From Gemmatimonadota bacterium (GTDB lineage Bacteria; Gemmatimonadota; Gemmatimonadetes; Gemmatimonadales; GWC2-71-9), in assembly GCA_003223415.1 (NCBI GenBank), contig QHUY01000046.1, positions 4,856-67,883 on the forward strand: 63,028 bases of DNA. The letters are read 5' to 3'. Below the pieces are notes generated by a model. The model did no database searches, was not told the origin of the DNA, and saw only the letters and a list, made by a program, of their open reading frames with translations. This document shows, in pieces, positions 30,775-61,905 of this stretch. How positions within the stretch are numbered: position 1 is the first letter of the stretch; every line of letters starts with the position of its first letter. A program made the position numbers and the translations under genes.

Positions 30775-33700
30775 TTAATCGTTCAACGCCGGTCCGGGAG
30801 ACTTGAGTGGATCGGGGAGCTTGCTCCACTGCTCGGGGGCGAGCACCGCGCGGGCGCGCTCGAGCGCCCACCGGGCGTTGTCCCGCGCCGCCGCGAGCTT
30901 CAAGCCGGTATCCAGCGACTCCGGGAGCAGGTGGTTCCGCGCGTCGAGCGAGTCCGCGATCGCCCGCAGCTGGGCGATTTGGTCGGGGGTGCAGCCCAGC
31001 GAATCCCGCAGCCCGAGGATCGCGGTGATGGGGTTGCTGGGCAGGGTGGGGGCGGGCAGACCCGGAGTCGTCTGCCGGGCGCCGCGCACGCTCCGGCGGA
31101 TCGGGCCGGGGCCGATTGCGAGGTGTCCCTGCAGGGCGATCTGGAACGGGACGGTGATGCCGCTGCTCGCGCTGGCGGTAGCGCCGAACCGCCCGTTCAC
31201 GGTGTAGTGGAACCGGGGGGTCGCCGGGTCGAAGCCGCGCACGTACAGGAGCACGGGGTCCGGCGCCGCAGCCCACCCCCAGCCGCGCAGGTTCACGGCG
31301 CCGTGCAGCCAGGCATCGAGGCCGCCGAGCAGATTCACGGTCAGGAGCGAAACCGTGAGCCGCCGGTCGAGCCCCAGCCCCGCCGGTCGCCAGTTGAGCT
31401 GCAGGTCGAGGGCGGGCTGCCAGGGCCCCGTGCAGGAGTTGCGCGCCGCGATCCGGCCGAGCTGGCGGCGCAGGCAGCTGCGCACGGCTGAGGGCGCGGT
31501 GGCGAGCAGCGCTTGCATCCCGTTCGTCACCGCCGTGTCCGCCGTCAATCCAGGATCGAAGATGAACGCGCGGTCGTTCCTGGCGCCGTCGCCGTTGATA
31601 TCGGACCGGACGAGCGGCGTGAAGGGGACCCCCGAGGTGAAGCTGCCGATCGCGCTGACGTCGAGCGCCCGCGTGACGGGAAGCGTAACGGTGCCCACGA
31701 ACGCGTGACGCCGCTCCAGACCGCTCCTGCTCCACTCGCGCGCGTCCGGATTACCACCGGTCGTCGGCGAGCCGAACCCGGCCGACGCCGAACAGCACGA
31801 GAATGACGACTGGTCACGGGCGCGCGTGAGCGTGTACCCGAGCCGGAACGACGCGCCCCACCGGGTCGCTCCCGTGAAGGTGAGGGTGAGTTGCTTCGTG
31901 TCCGACTGGAGATCGGAGCGCATGAGCAGCACGCTGCCGAACTCGGGGTGGAGGCGCGAGCCGGTGGAGCCAACGGTGCCCGTCGCCGGGACGATCGAGT
32001 CGGCCGGCACATAGATGGGGCGGCCGCCTTCGTCCGAGAGCGCGAAGCGCGGCGTCGTGGCCAGGTTCAGGTCGCGGAAGCCGTACTGGCTCAGGCCGCG
32101 CGCGTAGCTGCCCTCCAGCGTCACCCAGTAATAGCTGCTTCCGAAGCGTTGTACCAGCGCGAGGGATGCGCGCCGGGCGCGAGGCGCGGCGAAGTCGGGA
32201 GCGAAGGCTGTCACGTTCGGTCGGGGAGCGACGGCGACCGCGGTGGCCGTGTCCGCACACCGCGATGGAATCGTGGACGGGTCTTGAGCGTACCGCGACC
32301 ACTCGGGTACCGGCACAGCCGGGCCGACGCAGATCAGCTGGGTTTCCGCGGTCGCAAGCCCCGGGGCACCGAGTGCGGCCGCGTAGAGGGAAGTCGGCGT
32401 CAGGCCGCGGAAGTCGCCGACCCCGCCGCGCAAGAAGGTGGTCTGCGGCCCCCCGGACCCGGCTCCCAACGCCCAGGTGAAGCCGATGCGGGGCGAGACG
32501 TGTATCTCGCTGGGAATCCGGTCGGTGCGCACCCCGAACAGAGAATCCGCGGCGCGATTATAGGGCGGGGCGCCGCTGAAGCGGGCAGCCTCGAGCCGCG
32601 CGCCATACGTGAGCTGCAATCCCCCGGCCGCGCGCCAGGTGTCGCCCGCGTACACGGCGCTGTTCCAGGCCGTCCCCGGCTGGGCTTGAGGCACGAGCGT
32701 CCGCGTGAACATCGCTGCGCTGTCGGCGGCGAGCGCGGCGAGCGACGGGTAGATGAACGTACCGAACTGGTTCGGCGTCTGGTTCTCCTGCAGCCGTGTC
32801 CCGATCACGTCGACGCCGACCTTCAGCCGATGCGCCGTGGCGCCCGGCAACCACGACAGCTCGTCGGCAAATTCGAGGCTACGATTGTTGGTGCGCTGGG
32901 GGAGCCCGCCGTTGCCGCCGAACGCCAGCGCCGCCACGCCCTGACCGCCGTTCGGCAGGTCCGATGCGACGTCCACGATCGCGGACGGCAGCGCGAGGAA
33001 GGCGCGCGCCTCCCGGTGCTGGCGCGCCACGTACCCGCGCAGCTCGTTGATGAAGCGTCCGCCGAAGTACGAGGTGAGCGACGCCATCACGCCGCCGCCC
33101 CGCGCCGAGCGCGTTCCTCCGGTCGCGGGGAGGGCGAGCGTGCCCACGCGCGTGGGCTCCTGGGATTCCCAGCTGCCGTCGAGACGGAGCGTCAGCGTGT
33201 GAACGTCGCTCGCTTGCCAATCGAGGCGCAGTAAGGCGAGGGTGGTGTTCGTGCTGCGGCCGTCCGGGAGGCTGGGGAGCGTCACCGGGACTCCCCTCGC
33301 GGCGGCGAGCGCGACGAAGCGCGCGGCGGAATCGGGGCTCACGCCGAGCCGCGCGAGCGTGCCGGGATCGGCGGTGGTGAGCGAGGGCAGGGCCTGCGCG
33401 CGCCAGCGTCCCTGGAGTGCCGCGAACACGAAGAGCTTGTTGGGGACGATCGGGCCGCCCATCCCGCCCCCCAGCTGGTTCTGCGTGGCGCCCTGGCCGA
33501 ATGGCGAAGCCGTGGTTTCCCCCCAGGCGAGCGAGCGGTCGCGCAGCGCATAGGTGAACGCGCCCTGCGGGACGTTGGTGCCGCTGCGTGTGGTCGAGGT
33601 CACGAGGCCGCCGGAGAACTGGCCGCGGGCCACGTCCCAGCTGTTCGTGACGACGCGGATCGAGCGGACGGCGTCCTGGGGCACGCTCCCCGTGCCGAAC

Positions 33701-34317
33701 GATAGACCGTCGAGGGTGACGTTGTTCGCGGTGGGTCGTTGCCCGGCGACGGAGAACGCCGTCGCGGTGGAGTCGCTCTCGCGCATCCCAAGGACCCCGG
33801 GCTGCAAGGTCGCCACGGCGTTCAGGTCGGAGGCGTTGATCGGCAGGCGCGCCAGCCGGTCCGGGTCGAAGCTGCGATCGCTCGACCCCGGCCCCGCGCG
33901 ATCCCTCTGCGCGCCCGACCGTACGCTGACCGTGACGGGCTCGAGCGGCACTGCGAGCAGGCCCATCCGGATGCTGGCTTCGATCCGGTCTTCGTCCGCC
34001 TGACGGGCGACGTTGATCTGGACCGCGGCCATGCCGATGAAGCGTGCCGTCAGCTCGTAGCGCCCGCCGCCGTCGGGGAACACGATGGTGACCCGGCCGC
34101 GCCCGTCCGTGGTCCGCTGGCGCGACACCCGGGTCTCGACGGAGGTGGCCTGCACGGTGGCCCCGGCGAGGGGTTGGCTGTCGGGCCCCGTGACCATGCC
34201 GGTGATGATGTCGGTAGTCGCGCCGACCTGGGCGGCTGCCGGGCGCGCCGCCATCGCCACCAGGAGAAGGAGCGCCGGGAATAGCCGGCGGATTCGGTGC
34301 AGTCCGAGCGCGATCAT
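30775..34317 (-). CDS. TonB-dependent receptor with carboxypeptidase regulatory-like domain
   Basis: An outer-membrane protein of 1180 residues. A signal peptide (cleavage near AAAQ at about 30) is followed by a carboxypeptidase-regulatory-like beta sandwich (about 38-110), a plug domain (INASDLNAVATLQPGVLG, then FSVAGQRPTANNVTLDGL) and a long 22-strand-type barrel, as in Oar-like receptors. Instead of ending at the last barrel strand, it continues with about 90 residues of charged helix (DSLGCTPDQIAQLRAIADSL, later RAVLAPEQWSKLP) reminiscent of Spy/CpxP-type LTxxQ helices. It is the last gene of the leftward operon and overlaps the ATP-grasp stop by four bases. Substrate unknown. Confidence 0.85.
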   Translation of the reverse strand: MIALGLHRIRRLFPALLLLVAMAARPAAAQVGATTDIITGMVTGPDSQPLAGATVQATSVETRVSRQRTTDGRGRVTIVFPDGGGRYELTARFIGMAAVQINVARQADEDRIEASIRMGLLAVPLEPVTVSVRSGAQRDRAGPGSSDRSFDPDRLARLPINASDLNAVATLQPGVLGMRESDSTATAFSVAGQRPTANNVTLDGLSFGTGSVPQDAVRSIRVVTNSWDVARGQFSGGLVTSTTRSGTNVPQGAFTYALRDRSLAWGETTASPFGQGATQNQLGGGMGGPIVPNKLFVFAALQGRWRAQALPSLTTADPGTLARLGVSPDSAARFVALAAARGVPVTLPSLPDGRSTNTTLALLRLDWQASDVHTLTLRLDGSWESQEPTRVGTLALPATGGTRSARGGGVMASLTSYFGGRFINELRGYVARQHREARAFLALPSAIVDVASDLPNGGQGVAALAFGGNGGLPQRTNNRSLEFADELSWLPGATAHRLKVGVDVIGTRLQENQTPNQFGTFIYPSLAALAADSAAMFTRTLVPQAQPGTAWNSAVYAGDTWRAAGGLQLTYGARLEAARFSGAPPYNRAADSLFGVRTDRIPSEIHVSPRIGFTWALGAGSGGPQTTFLRGGVGDFRGLTPTSLYAAALGAPGLATAETQLICVGPAVPVPEWSRYAQDPSTIPSRCADTATAVAVAPRPNVTAFAPDFAAPRARRASLALVQRFGSSYYWVTLEGSYARGLSQYGFRDLNLATTPRFALSDEGGRPIYVPADSIVPATGTVGSTGSRLHPEFGSVLLMRSDLQSDTKQLTLTFTGATRWGASFRLGYTLTRARDQSSFSCCSASAGFGSPTTGGNPDAREWSRSGLERRHAFVGTVTLPVTRALDVSAIGSFTSGVPFTPLVRSDINGDGARNDRAFIFDPGLTADTAVTNGMQALLATAPSAVRSCLRRQLGRIAARNSCTGPWQPALDLQLNWRPAGLGLDRRLTVSLLTVNLLGGLDAWLHGAVNLRGWGWAAAPDPVLLYVRGFDPATPRFHYTVNGRFGATASASSGITVPFQIALQGHLAIGPGPIRRSVRGARQTTPGLPAPTLPSNPITAILGLRDSLGCTPDQIAQLRAIADSLDARNHLLPESLDTGLKLAAARDNARWALERARAVLAPEQWSKLPDPLKSPGPALND

Positions 34318-53820: not shown

Positions 53821-54093
53821 ATGGCGCGGGCGCGCTACCTGGTGCGGGGACGGGTGCAAGGGGTAGGGTTCCGCTGGTTTGTCCTGCAGGAAGCGGAGCG
53901 GCTGGGACTGGGAGGAGTCGTACGCAACCTCAGAGACGGTTCGGTGGAGGTCTTGGCCGAGGGGGGCCCGGAGGCGATGGCAGAGCTCGAGCGAACTCTG
54001 CGGTGCGGACCGCGGCTGGCACGAGTCGACGATGTTGAAAAGAGCGACGTTCCACATGATATGAATCTGCCTAAGCCATTTGGAGCCAGTTGA
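53821..54093 (+). CDS. acyP: Acylphosphatase
   Basis: Small enzyme hydrolysing acyl phosphates. 90 residues, the family size. The signature GRVQGVGFRWFV carries the catalytic Arg, and VVRNLRDGSVEVLAEG carries the catalytic Asn. Three bases after the dedA stop. The acyl-phosphate made by the PlsX/PlsY route is a possible substrate, but the physiological role of acylphosphatases is not settled. Confidence 0.93.
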   Translation: MARARYLVRGRVQGVGFRWFVLQEAERLGLGGVVRNLRDGSVEVLAEGGPEAMAELERTLRCGPRLARVDDVEKSDVPHDMNLPKPFGAS

Positions 54094-54744: not shown

Positions 54745-54801
54745 CTGACGGGGGGGGTGGGGGTCGAACAGCAGGCGCGGCTCTTGAGAGGATCGAGCGG
54801 C

Positions 54802-55473
54802 ATGGCGACATCGGTGGGAACAGCGCGGCCGGTTGCGGATGACAGCGACGTGCTCATGCGCGTGATCGCGTGGATCAAGGCGCACAGGCAAGTGTCCCTG
54901 TGGGTCGCCGTGATCCTCGTGGTGGGTGGCGGGCTGGTGTGGTGGAACGCGCTTTCCACCAAGCAGAGCGAGCAGAATGCCGGCCGGGCTCTGGTTTCGG
55001 CGCGTCTCGCCTTCGAGTCCCGAAACTTTCCACTCGCCTCGAGCGAGCTGGCACGCATCGTTGAGAACTACTCGGGCACGCACGCGGCGCAGGAGGCGAA
55101 CCTGCTGCTCGCTCAAGTGCGCCTCGCACAGGGGCAGAACCAATCAGCGATCGAGCTGCTACGTCGGTTTGCGCCCGACGCGAGCCGGGACTTCCGCGCC
55201 CAGGCCTATGGGCTGCTGGGGGCGGCCTACGAGAACGTCGCTCATCCGCGAGAAGCGGCGGACGCTTACGAAAAGGCGGCTGAGGCGGCTCGGATGCCGT
55301 TCCTGAGGGCGCAATTCCTCTCCGACGCCGGACGCGCCTGGTCGGCGGCGGGGGATACGGCCAAGGCGGTCGCCGCCTACCAGGAGATTGTCACCAAGCT
55401 CGATTCCACCAGCACCGTGGTCGAGGCGAAGGTGCGCCTGGGCGAGCTGACTCGGGGAGCTATTGTGAAGTGA
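54802..55473 (+). CDS. Membrane-anchored TPR protein, YfgM-like
   Basis: 223 residues from ATG 54802. A cytoplasmic N-terminus leads into one membrane helix (about 31-52: VSLWVAVILVVGGGLVWW), then four TPR units in the periplasm (AAQEANLLLAQVRLAQGQNQ, AQAYGLLGAAYENV, AVAAYQEIVTKL). YfgM of E. coli has the same layout and works with periplasmic chaperones and the Sec translocon. Similarity is architectural. An ATG at 54757 would add 15 residues of non-conserved sequence. Last + strand gene before the dif-like site. Confidence 0.75.
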   Translation: MATSVGTARPVADDSDVLMRVIAWIKAHRQVSLWVAVILVVGGGLVWWNALSTKQSEQNAGRALVSARLAFESRNFPLASSELARIVENYSGTHAAQEANLLLAQVRLAQGQNQSAIELLRRFAPDASRDFRAQAYGLLGAAYENVAHPREAADAYEKAAEAARMPFLRAQFLSDAGRAWSAAGDTAKAVAAYQEIVTKLDSTSTVVEAKVRLGELTRGAIVK

Positions 55474-55488
55474 GACGGGCCAGGATCA

Positions 55489-55516
55489 GCTTCGTATAAT
55501 AGATGTTATGTTAAGC
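55489..55516. other. dif: dif-like XerCD recombination site (chromosome dimer resolution)
   Basis: 28 bases with an 11-6-11 layout: GCTTCGTATAA (55489-55499), central TAGATG (55500-55505) and TTATGTTAAGC (55506-55516). The right arm matches the E. coli XerD arm TTATGTTAAAT at nine of eleven positions, and the left arm matches at seven of eleven. Agreement with the B. subtilis dif is similar overall. The arms are inverted with eight of eleven matches. It sits in the 72-base gap between convergent genes, where coding strand switches from + to -. No XerC or XerD gene is in the window. Confidence 0.8.
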
Positions 55517-55545
55517 TGCTCTGTGGTGGAATGTGGACAACCACT

Positions 55546-56349
55546 TCAGGTAAGCACACCCCGAAAGACCATCCGTGCCTCCCCTCCCAGCCATACGTCG
55601 TCGTAGCCATGGCCTGGCTTCCGTAGGGCCTGCACATCCAGCCTTCGGCCACTTGAGGTCAGGATGATGGTAGGAAGCCGCGCTAGGCCCCATTCAGACA
55701 AGGCGCAGGCCGCTGCCACGGCGCCTGTCCCGCACGCTAGGGTCTCCCCCTCGACCCCCCGCTCGTAGGTTCGCATCCGCCATTCGCCAGGCGCTTGGGC
55801 TGGCGAGATGAAGTTCACGTTGGCCCCCCCCTGGGGGGCGAGCGCGGGATGGAATCGTAGGGACCGTCCTCGAGCCGCCAGCGCTACCTGGTCGACGTTT
55901 TCGACCAGGACCAAGAGGTGTGGCACGCCGACCACGCCAAGGGCGAGACGCCGCTCCCCTGGCTCGAGCTCGATGCCGGGCACGGCCACCGGTGACTGCA
56001 ATGGAGTCAGATGCAGCTCGGCCCGTCCGGGATCCGCGGTGCAGCGGCTCTCGTACACGCCCGCGTCGGTCTCCAATCGCATCCCTTCTGCGGGCGCAAC
56101 GCCCAGGTGCGCGGCGAGACGGGTGCTGCACAGGGCCGCGTTGCCGCACATGGCCGCGTGCGAGCCGTCGCTGTTGAAATAGATCATGCGGACCGCCCCG
56201 GGCGCGGACCCCGCGAGCACGAACACGACGCCGTCGGCGCCCACCCCGGTGCCGCGCGCGCACGCCGCCCGGATGTCGGCTGGGGACCAGTCCCCGGGCG
56301 TGGAGACCCGCCCGTCGACCATGACGAAGTCGTTGCCCGACCCCGTCAT
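55546..56349 (-). CDS. dapF: Diaminopimelate epimerase
   Basis: Converts LL- to meso-diaminopimelate for lysine and peptidoglycan. 267 residues from the ATG at 56349. Catalytic cysteines are in AAMCGNAALC and in ACGTGAVAAA. FNSDGSHAAMCGN is the family core. The conserved N-terminus normally starts about five residues earlier (LPVYKMTGSGNDF), but no ATG, GTG or TTG exists there between the preceding gene's stop and 56349. A non-canonical start such as CTC 56364 or GTC 56358 may therefore be used. Convergent with the TPR gene. Confidence 0.9.
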   Translation of the reverse strand: MTGSGNDFVMVDGRVSTPGDWSPADIRAACARGTGVGADGVVFVLAGSAPGAVRMIYFNSDGSHAAMCGNAALCSTRLAAHLGVAPAEGMRLETDAGVYESRCTADPGRAELHLTPLQSPVAVPGIELEPGERRLALGVVGVPHLLVLVENVDQVALAARGRSLRFHPALAPQGGANVNFISPAQAPGEWRMRTYERGVEGETLACGTGAVAAACALSEWGLARLPTIILTSSGRRLDVQALRKPGHGYDDVWLGGEARMVFRGVLT

Positions 56350-56369
56350 CTTGTAGACGGGGAGCCCGA

Positions 56370-57092
56370 CTAAATGCGGCCGAACCAGCCCATCAGCCGC
56401 AGGCGCGGTACCATCCACACCGCCTCGCGCACGATGGCCTTGTTCATCTTGCTCTGCCCCTCGGTCCGGTCCACGAACACGATGGGGATTTCCGCCAGTT
56501 TGAATCCTTTTCGCCATGCCCGGACACTCATTTCGATCTGGAAAGCGTACCCATTGGAGCGCACCTGGTCGAGGTCGATCGCCTCGAGCACATGCCGGCG
56601 AAAGCACTTGAACCCGCCGGTCAGGTCCCAGATCCGCAGCCCCGTCAACCAGCGGGCGTAAATGTTGGCGCAGTACGACAGTAACAGCCGGCCCATGGGC
56701 CAGTTGACCACCGTCACCCTGCCTCCAAGATAACGCGATCCGAGCACCAGGTCCGCCCCTTGGACGGCCTTGAGAAACTCCTTCAAGTGCGCGGGATCGT
56801 GCGAGAAGTCAGCGTCCATCTCGAAGAGGTAGTCGTAGCCGCGCTCGAGTCCCCAACGAAACGCGGCCCGGTAGGCCGTGCCGAGTCCCAGCTTCTCCTC
56901 TCGGTGCAGCACGTGGACCCGGGAGTCGGCCCGGGCGAGCTCGTCGGCGATGCGGCCGGTCCCGTCCTGGGAGTTGTCGTCCACGACCAGCACGTCGATC
57001 CTCGGGTCTTGCGCCAGGACCTGCGGCAGGAGATTGGCGAGGTTCGGCGCCTCGTTGTACGTCGGAACGACGACGAGGGCTCGCTCAGCCAC
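56370..57092 (-). CDS. GT2 polyprenol-phosphate sugar transferase (DPM1-like)
   Basis: 240 residues, GTG at 57092. VVVPTYNEAPNLANLL, LVVDDNSQDGT and the DxD in YLFEMDADFSHDP are intact, as are GSRYLGG and DLTGGFKCFRR. No C-terminal membrane domain, so it resembles soluble dolichol-phosphate mannose synthase-type enzymes that load a sugar from a nucleotide donor onto polyprenol phosphate. The YfhO-type protein encoded just upstream in the same operon could use the lipid-linked sugar. It overlaps that gene by eight bases. Confidence 0.9.
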   Translation of the reverse strand: MAERALVVVPTYNEAPNLANLLPQVLAQDPRIDVLVVDDNSQDGTGRIADELARADSRVHVLHREEKLGLGTAYRAAFRWGLERGYDYLFEMDADFSHDPAHLKEFLKAVQGADLVLGSRYLGGRVTVVNWPMGRLLLSYCANIYARWLTGLRIWDLTGGFKCFRRHVLEAIDLDQVRSNGYAFQIEMSVRAWRKGFKLAEIPIVFVDRTEGQSKMNKAIVREAVWMVPRLRLMGWFGRI

Positions 57093-59505
57093 GCCGCCTC
57101 CGCCGCGAAAGCGGGGGGACCACCAGCCCCAGGGCCAGCACCAGCAGCGACAGCAAGGTGGCCTTCCGGCCGGTGCGGTAGTCGTGCGAGTCGAACACCA
57201 GGTCGATCCCCCGGGCGCCCGCCGGCACCGGGACCGTGATGAACGTCTGGTCGCCGCGGTACACCTCTGCCGGCGCGCCATCCACCGTCGCGTGCCAGTC
57301 CGGATACCAGTTCTCCGCGACCAGCAAGTAGCTCGGCGCGGGGGGCGCGGGGTCGAGGCTGATCGACATCTGCCCGGGCGCCCAGTGCGTCACCGTCGGC
57401 TTGGACGGGCTCGGTGGTGGCATCTCGGTGATGGGTAGTGGGTTCAGGTGCTGTGTGGTATCGAGCAGCACCAGTCGGTCGAAATCGAGCCGCCGGTCCA
57501 GCAGCGTTGGCACGATGCGTTCGGGCTCGGCTTTAACTGCCGCCGGCACCACCCGAGCGTAGGGGGGCACGGTGTCGGCCTCGTGAACATAGGCGCGGCC
57601 GCCCGCCGCGGTGGTCGAGGGGCCCAACACGGGGTGATAGCCGGGCACACGGCTGCTGTCGGCCAGAATCACGTACCGTACGGCGAGCAGCTGCCACAAG
57701 TGCGTGGTGCCGAAGACGTAGCGGTAGCCCTCGTCCTTGTCCACCAGCTCATCATAGGCTCGCAGTTCGAAGCCATGGTAGCCCAGCACCTGTGGGATGC
57801 CGTGCCTCATGAGCACGGTGCCGGGGTAGACGGTATCGAGGGCGCGGTAGGGCGGCGGGGTCGCTTTGATGAGTCGCTCAATGGGGTCCTCGGCGTACAG
57901 CTCCTGCTCCGGGCGGCTCCACTGCCAGAAGCCTGCCCCCGCTCGCCAGAGATCTGCGCCCACGACGAGCGCGAGCACAGTGGCGAAGACAGGCGGGGAG
58001 GCCTTGCCGTCCACGAACGTGAGCCCCACCCCGGCGACCAGGGCGAGCGCCACGCAGCTCCCCACCGCCCCCCACAGGATTCCCGACTGGGCGGTGCGCG
58101 CGGCTGCCGTGACGTTGCCGACCACGTGGCGCACGGTAGCCGCGTGCGCCGCGGCCCAGGATTCCGCTATCGTGCCGTAGACGCCCACCAGGCCGAGCAG
58201 TCCGAGCAGGCCGGCGACGCCAAGTGCGTAGAGCAGCACCGTGCGGCCCTCGCGCCGCTCCAATCGCTCAACACCGGCGGCCGCGAGGATCGCGACCGCG
58301 AGCGCGACCACGTAGAAGGCGATCCCTGGGGCGCGGGTCTTGTTCACATAGGGGACCAGCGTCCACCACAGCCGATAGAACGGCGTTCCTCCCCCAAGGC
58401 TGACGAGCAGGAACAGCACGGCGAGCGCCAGCGCCCAACGCGTGAGCCTCTTGTGTTGCCCTTCCCCCTCCCGCCCCCCCGCGGCCCCGAGGACGGCGAG
58501 TAGGATGAGCGGGAGCCCGAGGTACTCACTGTGGAGCTTGAGGGAGTTCGGCCCCCAGTACGTGTCGTGCGCACCAGTGAGATCGGTGACGCCGGTGAAA
58601 CCCGACAGGAAGAATTCCGGGACATGGATCCACGGCGTGCCGTAGCTGGCGGACCATTCGAACCCTTGGGCTGCCGCGCGAACCGAAAACGGTATGTAGT
58701 GGAAGAACGGGAGGACTTGGATCAACGACATTCCGAAACCGAGCAGGACACCGCCGAGGGCGAACGCGAGGCCGGTCCACCGCTCGCGCGGGGTCAGCTT
58801 GATCGGCTCACCAAAGACCAGGTACAGCGCGAAGATGCCGGCGACGATGAGCGCGTACTGCGCGGTCTGGTACTGCGGCGACAACAGCGCCAGGCCGACC
58901 GCGAGGCCGAGCAGGGCGTGGCCCTCGAGCCGCCGCCGTCGGATCCCCAGCACGAGGCCGATCAGCATCAGTGGCAGCAGCGCGGTGACAAAGAGCTTGC
59001 CGTCGTGACCTGGTGAGGCGTAGGAGACCACCACCCCGCTCAACTGGTAGGCCGTGCCACCGACGACCGAGCCGAGCCAGGAGAACCCCAACATCCGCAG
59101 CAGCAGATAAAGAAAGAACCCGGCCATCACGTAGTGGGCCACGAACGCGATGTCCATGGCAGGCACCGTGGACATGAACAAGCGGAGCCAGGCGGTGGGA
59201 TAGAACAGGTCGCCGAAGCCGGCGAACACCGGGACGCCGCCCACCATCATGGGGTTCCACTGCGGAGGGTGCCCCGTGGCCTTCCACTGCAGCGCGCCCC
59301 ACAGCCGGATGGCGTAGCCGGTGGCGTGCTGGTCACTGTTGGGCCCCGCCAGGAGCTGCCCGCCCCACATCGGCAGCGAGAGGATCGCGATCCACAGGCA
59401 GCAGAACCCGAATGCGGCCAGGTCGGGCCGGGCCGGAGCGTACGGGACGAGGGGTGGAGAGGGTGCGAGCGTGGGGGCCGGGGCGCCGCCGGGGGATTTG
59501 CTCAA
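57085..59505 (-). CDS. YfhO-family multispanning membrane protein (putative GT-C)
   Basis: 806 residues, TTG at 59505, which overlaps the next upstream gene's stop and has GGGAG seven bases before it. About 12 membrane helices occupy residues 30-530, followed by a soluble beta-rich periplasmic C-terminus (WYPDWHATVDG, YRGDQTFITVPV) and a last membrane segment before the Arg-rich end. The DLFYPTAWLRLF region and these C-terminal motifs match Pfam YfhO. Bacillus YfhO glycosylates lipoteichoic acid using lipid-linked sugar. Here it would glycosylate a surface polymer, an inference. Frame extension up to 60408 is antiphase to the next gene. Confidence 0.82.
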   Translation of the reverse strand: MSKSPGGAPAPTLAPSPPLVPYAPARPDLAAFGFCCLWIAILSLPMWGGQLLAGPNSDQHATGYAIRLWGALQWKATGHPPQWNPMMVGGVPVFAGFGDLFYPTAWLRLFMSTVPAMDIAFVAHYVMAGFFLYLLLRMLGFSWLGSVVGGTAYQLSGVVVSYASPGHDGKLFVTALLPLMLIGLVLGIRRRRLEGHALLGLAVGLALLSPQYQTAQYALIVAGIFALYLVFGEPIKLTPRERWTGLAFALGGVLLGFGMSLIQVLPFFHYIPFSVRAAAQGFEWSASYGTPWIHVPEFFLSGFTGVTDLTGAHDTYWGPNSLKLHSEYLGLPLILLAVLGAAGGREGEGQHKRLTRWALALAVLFLLVSLGGGTPFYRLWWTLVPYVNKTRAPGIAFYVVALAVAILAAAGVERLERREGRTVLLYALGVAGLLGLLGLVGVYGTIAESWAAAHAATVRHVVGNVTAAARTAQSGILWGAVGSCVALALVAGVGLTFVDGKASPPVFATVLALVVGADLWRAGAGFWQWSRPEQELYAEDPIERLIKATPPPYRALDTVYPGTVLMRHGIPQVLGYHGFELRAYDELVDKDEGYRYVFGTTHLWQLLAVRYVILADSSRVPGYHPVLGPSTTAAGGRAYVHEADTVPPYARVVPAAVKAEPERIVPTLLDRRLDFDRLVLLDTTQHLNPLPITEMPPPSPSKPTVTHWAPGQMSISLDPAPPAPSYLLVAENWYPDWHATVDGAPAEVYRGDQTFITVPVPAGARGIDLVFDSHDYRTGRKATLLSLLVLALGLVVPPLSRRRRRG

Positions 59506-60425
59506 CGAAGGGCTCCCTTTCGCACGACGAGGAACGGCGCCGCGGCGCCAAGCTCGGTGATCGTCAGCAGCACCCGCGACGCGAGCGCCAGCGCGACCGC
59601 CAGCTTCGGCCCGACGGCGCCCGCGAGCAGGAGATAGAACAGCGACTCCCGAGGGCCGAGGCCCGCCGGGGCGAACACCGCCACGAGGCCTACAAGATAC
59701 GAGATCGTGAACACGGTCGCGGCCAGGCCCCAGCCAAGCGTCACGTCCGCCGTGAGCCCGCGGGCGAGGCACTGGAAGGCCAGCCCATATGCGGCCCAGG
59801 CGACGACGTTGACCAGAAAGGCGGCGAGCATGACTCCCGCCGGGATCGGCGCGAGGGCCGGCCAGGAGGCGGGCAGGACGCGCCGCAGCGTCCCCAACGC
59901 CCGCGGCGAGGACAGCGCGACCACGCCCAGTAGCGCGCCAATGCCGAGCGTGAGCGTTACGACGACCATCCAGGCCGGCGCGGCGCGCAAGGCCGCGGGG
60001 CTGAGCGCCCCCACCAGGGCGAGGCCGCTCCCCAGCGCGAGGGCCTGGTTCACGAGCGCGGCCGCGACCGCGGCCGGCGCGTCTACACCGGCCTGTTGGG
60101 CCAGCAGCGCATTGCCCGCGATGGCCCACACCTTGCCAGGAAGGTACTTGCCAAGGTTCGACACCATGCAGATACGCGCGGCGTCGCGGTACCCGAGCCG
60201 CTGATGCATCGAGACCACCACCCGGCGCCACGCCTCGACGAGCAGCGCGTAGGCTGTCCAGACGATCGCCACACTCGCGACGAGCCAGGCCGGCCGCACT
60301 TCCCAGGCTACTGGCTGCGCTCGCAGCGCGTCCCAGCTTCCCGCGAGCCTGCGTACCGCGAGCCCGATGACGAGCAGTGCGAGCAGCGCCTGGGCGGTTC
60401 GCCACCAACGCCTCCGCTCAGCCAT
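59502..60425 (-). CDS. Flippase-like membrane protein (LPG synthase TM / UPF0104 family)
   Basis: 307 residues with seven to eight membrane helices. MVSNLGKYLPGKVWAIAGN near residue 88 and APAGLGPRESLF near the C-terminus are the family hallmarks of the lysylphosphatidylglycerol-synthase transmembrane/AglD-type superfamily. These proteins are proposed lipid or lipid-linked-sugar flippases without the MprF catalytic domain. Start at 60425 overlaps the deacetylase stop by eight bases. Confidence 0.85.
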   Translation of the reverse strand: MAERRRWWRTAQALLALLVIGLAVRRLAGSWDALRAQPVAWEVRPAWLVASVAIVWTAYALLVEAWRRVVVSMHQRLGYRDAARICMVSNLGKYLPGKVWAIAGNALLAQQAGVDAPAAVAAALVNQALALGSGLALVGALSPAALRAAPAWMVVVTLTLGIGALLGVVALSSPRALGTLRRVLPASWPALAPIPAGVMLAAFLVNVVAWAAYGLAFQCLARGLTADVTLGWGLAATVFTISYLVGLVAVFAPAGLGPRESLFYLLLAGAVGPKLAVALALASRVLLTITELGAAAPFLVVRKGALR

Positions 60426-61905
60426 GGTCGCCGGCCGGCCAAGGACGCGTCTCCACCACCCTGCCCTGGCCGTCTTCCAGGACGAGCGGCCACTGCTGCC
60501 GCTCTTCCCCGTCGGCCACGAGGTCGAGCCGGCCCTCGGACGTCACGGTCCGCGCCCGCACGCCACGTCGCGCCGCGCGCCACGCGACGACCTCGCCGAG
60601 GGTCCCGACAAACGGGGGGCGCTCGCCCGCCAGGACCTCGCGCACCAGCCGCCCGTACCCTGCCGGAGCGTCGGGAAACCCCAGCGCGGGGGTGAGATTC
60701 GGGTGCCAGAGGCCCACCCACAACCCTTCCACCTCCCGGCAGGCGGCCGCGAGCGACACCCCGTCCTCGATCCAGGCGTCGGGATCTTCCACGCCGCCGT
60801 ACTTACTCAACGCGCGGTCCATCCAGACGAGCGGCACCTCATCGAGCGGGGTGGACGCCTGCGTCTTCGCGTCCCAGCCGGGGACGATGTCGGCGACGCC
60901 GAGCCGGAAGCCGCTCCGGTCGGGGTAGCCGTAGGTGGCGTCGTAGCGGAAGCCCGCGGCGAGCATCGCCTGCTGGGTCGCCCCGGGGCGCATGCGCAGG
61001 AAGTGCTGCCGCACTCCCCCCGGCACCCGACCGGTAACGGCGGCCAGCCGTTCCCGCTCGCGGCGCAGCGTGGCCACGTCGAGCCAGCTCGCGAAGCTGC
61101 CGTGCAATCCGATCTCGTGGCCACCGTCGCTCACCGCGGAGAGGAGCCGCCGCGTGGCGCGGGACTCCGGGCGGTAGGTGACGTCTCCCCCGGCCCAGGT
61201 GCGCAGTGTGGGGGTCCCGCCGATCACGAACCATGTCGAGCGCACACCGGCGTCGCCGTCGGCGCGCAGCAACTGATCGACCCCCTGCCAGACCGGTGAC
61301 TGCCCGCCGCCCGCCCTCCTCCCCGCGGCCGCGAGCCCGGCCCAGGTACTCCGTGCGGCCCGACCGACCTCGCCCCGGCGGAGCAGTTCGACCAACCGGA
61401 GCAGTGTGAAAACAGGCCACCCGGCGACGACATCGAGATCGTGGGTGAAGGCCGCAGCCCAGCGTCGCCCGTTCGGCCAGGGCGCGAGGCAGCGCACGGG
61501 CCGGGGGCCGGCGGCGGTGCGCACGGCCGCCCGCAGCGCGGCGGCGTGGCGGCTCACCACGGGTTCGCGCCAGCGCTCGGCGCGCACCAGGGGGTTCTCG
61601 TGGGACGGCACCCGGTCGTGCGGGTCGTAGCTCTCCGACCGCTGCTCCTCCCCCGCCCCGGCCACGTCGCTGACGTAGGTGAGCACGTTGCGGGAGAAGC
61701 GTACCTCACCGTCCTCGTGCGTCAGCGCCCAGCGGCCGGCGAGGAACGCGTCGTAGTCGTCGCGGCGATCGTTGGTGATGGTGAGCCGCACGACGTCGGC
61801 GGCGGGGTCGTCCACCGGCAGGAGCCGCGACGCGTCGAGCAGCACGGCAAGGCCGTAGCGCTCGTTGGGCCGGAGGTGCGCGGCCGGCGTCGTGAGGCGG
61901 ATCAC
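60418..61905 (-). CDS. Polysaccharide deacetylase-like protein
   Basis: 495 residues, GTG at 61905 overlapping the acetyltransferase stop. An N-terminal beta-domain of about 170 residues is followed by a NodB-fold deacetylase: FTHDLDVV (metal Asp), [22 protein letters not shown] (metal His) and [12 protein letters not shown] Gly-rich insertion (RRAGGGQ) lies between the first two motifs. It would remove acetyl groups from a surface glycan, and neighbours support this role. Frame extension beyond 61905 lies within the acetyltransferase gene. Confidence 0.85.

Follow-up and report, generated by a model that had tools for sequence, protein, structure and literature searches.

The locus and its gene neighbourhood

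The DNA analysed here, referred to as the window, is a stretch of 63,028 nucleotides (C123:4856-67883 of the source genome, handle G000) within a contig of 96.8 kb. The source is a draft genome of 3.53 Mb, which consists of 280 contigs and is 97.5% complete. At about 55.5 kb the window contains a dif-like site, located between the convergent genes of a TPR protein on the plus strand and dapF on the minus strand, and followed on the dapF side by a short conserved box (Table 1). The first-pass annotation had described a 28-bp sequence with two 11-bp arms and a 6-bp centre between convergent genes, and both its sequence and its coordinates proved exact.

Table 1. Features at and around the dif-like site, in coordinates of the window
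Feature	Position	Strand	Sequence, basis and remarks
dif 28-mer	55489-55516		GCTTCGTATAATAGATGTTATGTTAAGC; coordinates and letters exact by direct reading
XerC-type arm of dif	55489..55499	+	GCTTCGTATAA, 11 bp; direct reading and stack of 28 loci
Centre of dif	55500..55505	+	TAGATG, 6 bp; direct reading
XerD-type arm of dif	55506..55516	+	TTATGTTAAGC, 11 bp; direct reading and stack of 28 loci
Spacer between dif and box	55517..55531	+	15 nt, mostly unconserved; low conservation in the column stack
Putative accessory box	55532..55540	+	TGTGGACAA (complement TTGTCCACA, DnaA-box-like); fixed offset and stack
TPR-repeat protein gene, XerC side	54757..55473	+	Stop at 55473; ORF with Pfam TPR hits; start codon uncertain
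dapF, diaminopimelate epimerase, XerD-arm side	55546..56607	-	Stop ends at 55546; PF01678 and TIGR00652 above cut-off; start probably internal to the ORF
KOPS, nearest on the left, pointing to dif	53861..53868	+	GGGNAGGG
KOPS, nearest on the right, pointing to dif	58459..58466	-	GGGNAGGG
Second right-hand KOPS, pointing to dif	60459..60466	-

The plus-strand genes between 44.7 and 55.5 kb encode a TPR protein, a DUF512 radical SAM protein, Der/EngA, GpsA, MerR, GT2, PCMT and VTT proteins and the TPR protein next to the site. They are followed on the minus strand by dapF, a GT2 gene, a YfhO-like gene and others, and the gene listing supports the change of strand at this point that had been noted previously. 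Beyond the window the genes of the contig remain mostly on the minus strand as far as about +20 kb. Neither a terminator nor a promoter was found at the dif site. Elsewhere in the window, positions 30775-34317 encode a large outer-membrane beta-barrel protein (OMP_b-brl_4) with a carboxypeptidase-regulatory-like domain.

In most relatives checked dapF adjoins dif, and the gene order on both sides of the site is kept across families f1 and f2. The DapF matches with 68-71% identity belong to Gemmatimonadetes draft genomes, which places the source, an uncultured bacterium, in the phylum Gemmatimonadota. In the named Gemmatimonadetes dapF loci dif lies directly past the dapF stop. The exact 28-mer had no match in the named genomes searched.

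Sequence, copy number and conservation of dif

In a stack of 28 loci from the family, the 28 positions of dif average 2.01 bits per base, as compared with 0.17 for 30 positions of the left flank. Conservation reaches 96-100% at positions 5-11 of the XerC-type arm and at each position of the XerD arm TTATGTTAA, while the 6-bp centre varies more among relatives than either arm. The XerD arm was expected to be that of known dif sites, and it is indeed TTATGTTAA-like, the whole site being identical at 20/28 positions to the dif of E. coli and at 20/28 to that of B. subtilis. A weight matrix built from 27 relatives assigns 46.4 bits to the site, and the next-best unrelated place in the contig receives 3.1 bits.

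The core GTATAATNNATNTTATGTTAA has one copy in the window and none in 100 shuffles with three mismatches allowed, and it is single in the whole source genome at ≤3 mismatches. A strict core is present within two mismatches in 45/61 relatives, nearly always once, which agrees with the earlier expectation of one copy per chromosome. When genomes were drawn evenly from the phylum, a relaxed core was found in 277/295 Gemmatimonadota genomes, where the reversed control pattern gave few matches. The predicted presence of the site in relatives is borne out, and in most of them it lies beside dapF.

Xer recombinases and FtsK

A single close XerC-type recombinase is encoded in the source genome, in a trmFO-xerC arrangement (the neighbouring ORF was named by reading its translation), and TIGR02224 is the best model for the XerC-like gene on C110, with a score slightly below the cut-off. 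FtsK with the FtsK_gamma domain is present in 10/10 genomes tested, the source genome included. XerD is present in 54/61 relatives, and the second Xer protein of one relative exceeds the TIGR02225 (XerD) cut-off. Where dif and xerD share a contig, the two are mostly separated by 17-27 kb, with xerD on the side of the XerD arm and within the block pyrG-kdsB-pabA-xerD-dedA-ispF (gene names from reading translations). It has been reported that xerC is mostly found near dif (PMC3025954), whereas here it is xerD that lies near dif and xerC is placed beside trmFO.

A search of the source draft assembly for xerD did not find the gene. The conserved order breaks after pabA (L036, G000:C123:80000-96785), and dedA and ispF open contig C82, both within its first kilobase, so placed that the side on which xerD would lie runs off the contig end. 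Because these two neighbours sit at the start of C82, the missing xerD is attributed to an assembly gap, the gene being most likely lost at the contig end. A system with a single recombinase was considered and rejected in view of the position of dedA and ispF and of the xerD genes of the relatives. The break after pabA is itself either a rearrangement or a mis-join of the draft assembly. A relative with a perfect dif (G010, 98% complete) had neither XerC nor XerD matched at E 1e-20, probably due to assembly gaps.

FtsK-orienting sequences and the position of the terminus

GGGNAGGG is the FtsK-orienting sequence (KOPS) known in E. coli and V. cholerae (PMC5357621, PMC13342612). Strand polarity was analysed in an unbiased manner, with no motif preselected, over 1.93 Mb from 13 genomes. 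Among 14,950 gapped families GGGNAGGG ranks first in polarity (271:57), and among 24,071 octamer pairs the first place goes to GGGCAGGG (135:13). For the remaining arrangements of six G, one A and a free base the median is 64%. In the contig of the window GGGNAGGG is distributed 22:6 to the left of dif and 2:7 to the right (Fisher p 0.004); in the twelve other genomes the counts on either side are 111:21 and 28:131 (p 1e-31). The motif thus points to dif from both sides and its polarity reverses at the site. A literature search of incomplete coverage returned no earlier report of GGGNAGGG polarity in Gemmatimonadota, and the unbiased test extends FtsK-orienting sequences of the E. coli type to this phylum.

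The source assembly is fragmented; the distance of dif from the origin was read from relatives assembled as a single contig. In G043 dif lies 42% of the way round, at 1.93 of 4.64 Mb, with dnaA at 1.2 kb, and in G058 it lies 45% of the way round, at 2.12 of 4.72 Mb, with dnaA at 1.3 kb. The exception is G019 (5.5 Mb, one contig), in which dif is 26% from dnaA and the skew samples are scrambled, and which is either a chimeric assembly or a chromosome that underwent heavy rearrangement. The xerD gene of G019 is 55 kb from dif, on the opposite side.

The first-pass annotation placed a dif site at the replication terminus, and both the identity of the site and this placement are upheld by its single copy per genome, the distance from dnaA in the two relatives, the reversal of GGGNAGGG polarity, the synteny with dapF and the Xer and FtsK genes. 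Its expectation that GC skew would flip at 55.5 kb holds only locally: the sign changes at dif (+0.10 and -0.07 in 1.5-kb flanks), but the contig as a whole shows only weak skew (+0.025 on the left, +0.003 on the right), with a cumulative maximum at 77 kb of the contig, 17 kb away from dif. Keto excess has its maximum 20 bases beyond dif, at contig position 60391. In G043 the two arms differ in sampled GC skew, with averages of +0.029 and -0.004 (Mann-Whitney p 0.006). GC skew was rejected as the main proof of the terminus, being too weak in the source contig and scrambled in G019, and KOPS polarity is the better evidence.

A conserved box beside the XerD arm

When the loci are stacked on dif, with dif as positions 1-28, a second conserved block, TGTGGNNAA, appears at +44 to +52. 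This box, which in the window follows the XerD arm after 15 nt, was overlooked in the first-pass annotation. It was followed in 53 distinct dif loci from families f1 and f2 and from named relatives; these loci are kin by descent and so are not independent, and the unconserved neighbouring columns serve as the internal control. With at most one mismatch, TGTGGNNAA lies 15-16 nt past the XerD arm in 50/53 loci, at offset 15 in 39 and at offset 16 in 11. Many loci have a second copy exactly 10 bp closer to dif, at offset 5 (10 loci) or 6 (11 loci), and every remaining offset, on both strands and both sides, has at most one match.

Exact TGTGGANAA is present in 33/53 loci, where composition predicts 0.0005, and occurs once in the window. 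The 1.93 Mb sampled hold 28 exact copies. Eight lie no more than 45 nt from dif, and one stands directly upstream of dnaA (G043). Further exact copies are located on the XerC side of dif in G018 (-1100/-1227), G030 (-1438) and G033 (-1529).

The distribution of the box was surveyed with a composite pattern made of the XerD arm, 15-20 nt and TGTGGNNAA. The pattern was found in 6/6 Gemmatimonadales controls, 4/7 genomes of family f6 and 1/7 of family f4; the tested genomes of families f5, f7, f8 and f9 all lacked it. It was also found in 0/29 genomes of other phyla, which were taken irrespective of whether they carry a dif of the same form. The box runs throughout the order Gemmatimonadales and is patchy in the class.

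Interpretation

Taken jointly, the observations make it very likely that the 28-mer is the chromosomal dif at the replication terminus and that a genuine accessory protein site stands beside it; for the accessory site considered on its own, confidence is higher still. XerC would bind the left arm of dif and XerD the right arm, and FtsK, loading on GGGNAGGG, would be directed to dif from both chromosome arms. At the septum FtsK would join the two dif copies and activate XerD, and Xer recombination at 55489-55516, as predicted from the sequence, would convert a chromosome dimer into two monomers. In Gemmatimonadales, dif carries in addition a putative protein-binding box, TGTGGNNAA, 15-16 nt past the XerD arm, and the two copies that are often present, 10 bp apart, would lie on one face of the helix. 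The box is likely to be an accessory protein site for Xer recombination or for control of the terminus. The most likely interpretation places next to XerD a protein that recognises DnaA boxes, with DnaA as the candidate, which may modulate recombination or mark the locus that is replicated last.

Plasmids and integrated elements can also carry dif-like sites, and two copies are present in several relatives, so that a plasmid dif or the Xer site of an integrated element might be envisaged in place of a chromosomal dif. Among the relatives with two copies are the drafts G038, G185, G188, G191 and G265, in which the flanks of the copies are nearly identical and often at contig ends. Integrated mobile elements were rejected as the cause of this doubling, the flanks being the same or strain variants, and the duplicates inspected (L313-L322) are strain-variant or overlapping contigs. 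Against a mobile-element site there are also the housekeeping synteny on both sides, conserved across families, the single copy and the flip of FtsK-motif polarity at dif, and this origin is extremely improbable. A different question is whether the box is a by-product of the dapF coding sequence or of a terminator between the convergent genes, given that it is found in a short convergent intergenic region adjoining dapF. The dapF stop occurs anywhere from about +52 to +365 relative to dif, whereas the spacing between box and dif is fixed, and therefore the box belongs to dif and not to dapF. For the same reason the by-product explanation is largely refuted; moreover, no terminator-like hairpin was found and most other flanking columns are unconserved, which leaves it very improbable.

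The protein that binds the box is harder to name. The DnaA box is TTATNCACA, and in actinobacteria TTGTCCACA. When the 9-mer is compared with TTWTNCACA or TTGTCCACA, the complement accepts any base at position 3 and has C at position 4 in 11/53 loci, and these two positions are thus looser than in classical DnaA boxes. Furthermore, DnaA is universal, whereas the box is confined to Gemmatimonadales and certain families of the class. Both points favour a genuine dif whose box is bound by a protein other than DnaA, such as a lineage-specific Xer accessory factor, an SMC-unloading partner, a nucleoid protein or a fork barrier, and this stands at slightly less than an even chance. On the other side, the complement of the box is exactly TTNTCCACA, which resembles a DnaA box, in 33/53 loci, a tandem pair of perfect DnaA-type boxes is present in G051, and TTATCCACA is found just upstream of dnaA in G043 and G058. 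The DnaA of the lineage aligns with the Bacillus-type protein and retains in domain IV the box-reading signature FGGRDHSTVIH. DnaA is accordingly a serious candidate for the binder, with a probability that falls just short of one half.

More tentative, and rather doubtful as a whole, is the proposal that in Gemmatimonadales DnaA, bound to one or two boxes held in fixed helical phase by the XerD arm, gates XerCD recombination or the processing of the terminus in step with the replication cycle, so that dimer resolution would be coupled to the initiator. The dif sequence with its conservation and single copy, the polarity of the FtsK motif, the genes and the box at its fixed spacing were observed directly, whereas recombination at the site, the identity of the bound protein and its presumed role, as well as any part of the box in the control of Xer recombination, are inferred. 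That a box beside dif is conserved throughout an order points to a further level of control in the terminus. Should DnaA be the binder, the initiation and the termination of the same replication cycle would be linked.

Comparison with known systems

By itself, the assignment of dif and of the terminus is ordinary, and only the box beside dif is novel. A search of titles and abstracts, incomplete in coverage, for DnaA boxes at dif and for accessory sequences of dif gave nothing alike. The dif of this phylum was thought to be little described, which is correct for experiments but not for computation, as a site of the same class, a 28-mer known there by prediction only, was reported in one Gemmatimonadetes genome by Kono in 2011 (PMC3025954). 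No mention of dif-flanking elements or of KOPS in Gemmatimonadota was found in that work (PMC3025954).

The dif sites of E. coli and B. subtilis are, like this one, 28 bp long with an 11-6-11 layout, have a nearly identical XerD arm and are present in a single copy at the terminus. E. coli also has in common with this lineage the FtsK-gamma domain and the KOPS GGGNAGGG. Chromosomal dif is usually described as a self-sufficient 28-bp site controlled by FtsK alone. What sets the Gemmatimonadales site apart is the conserved box that keeps a fixed distance from its XerD arm; the flank of the E. coli K-12 dif contains no such box.

With its complement TTNTCCACA and its occasional tandem arrangement the box is similar to the DnaA box, from which it differs in lying next to dif in the terminus, and not at the origin, and in its relaxed positions 3 and 4. 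The plasmid Xer sites cer and psi employ ArgR/PepA or ArcA/PepA on long accessory DNA on the XerC side. As in cer and psi, the site described here combines an Xer core with a fixed, predicted protein-binding stretch on one side, but the stretch consists of one or two putative 9-bp boxes, is placed on the XerD side and accompanies a chromosomal dif.
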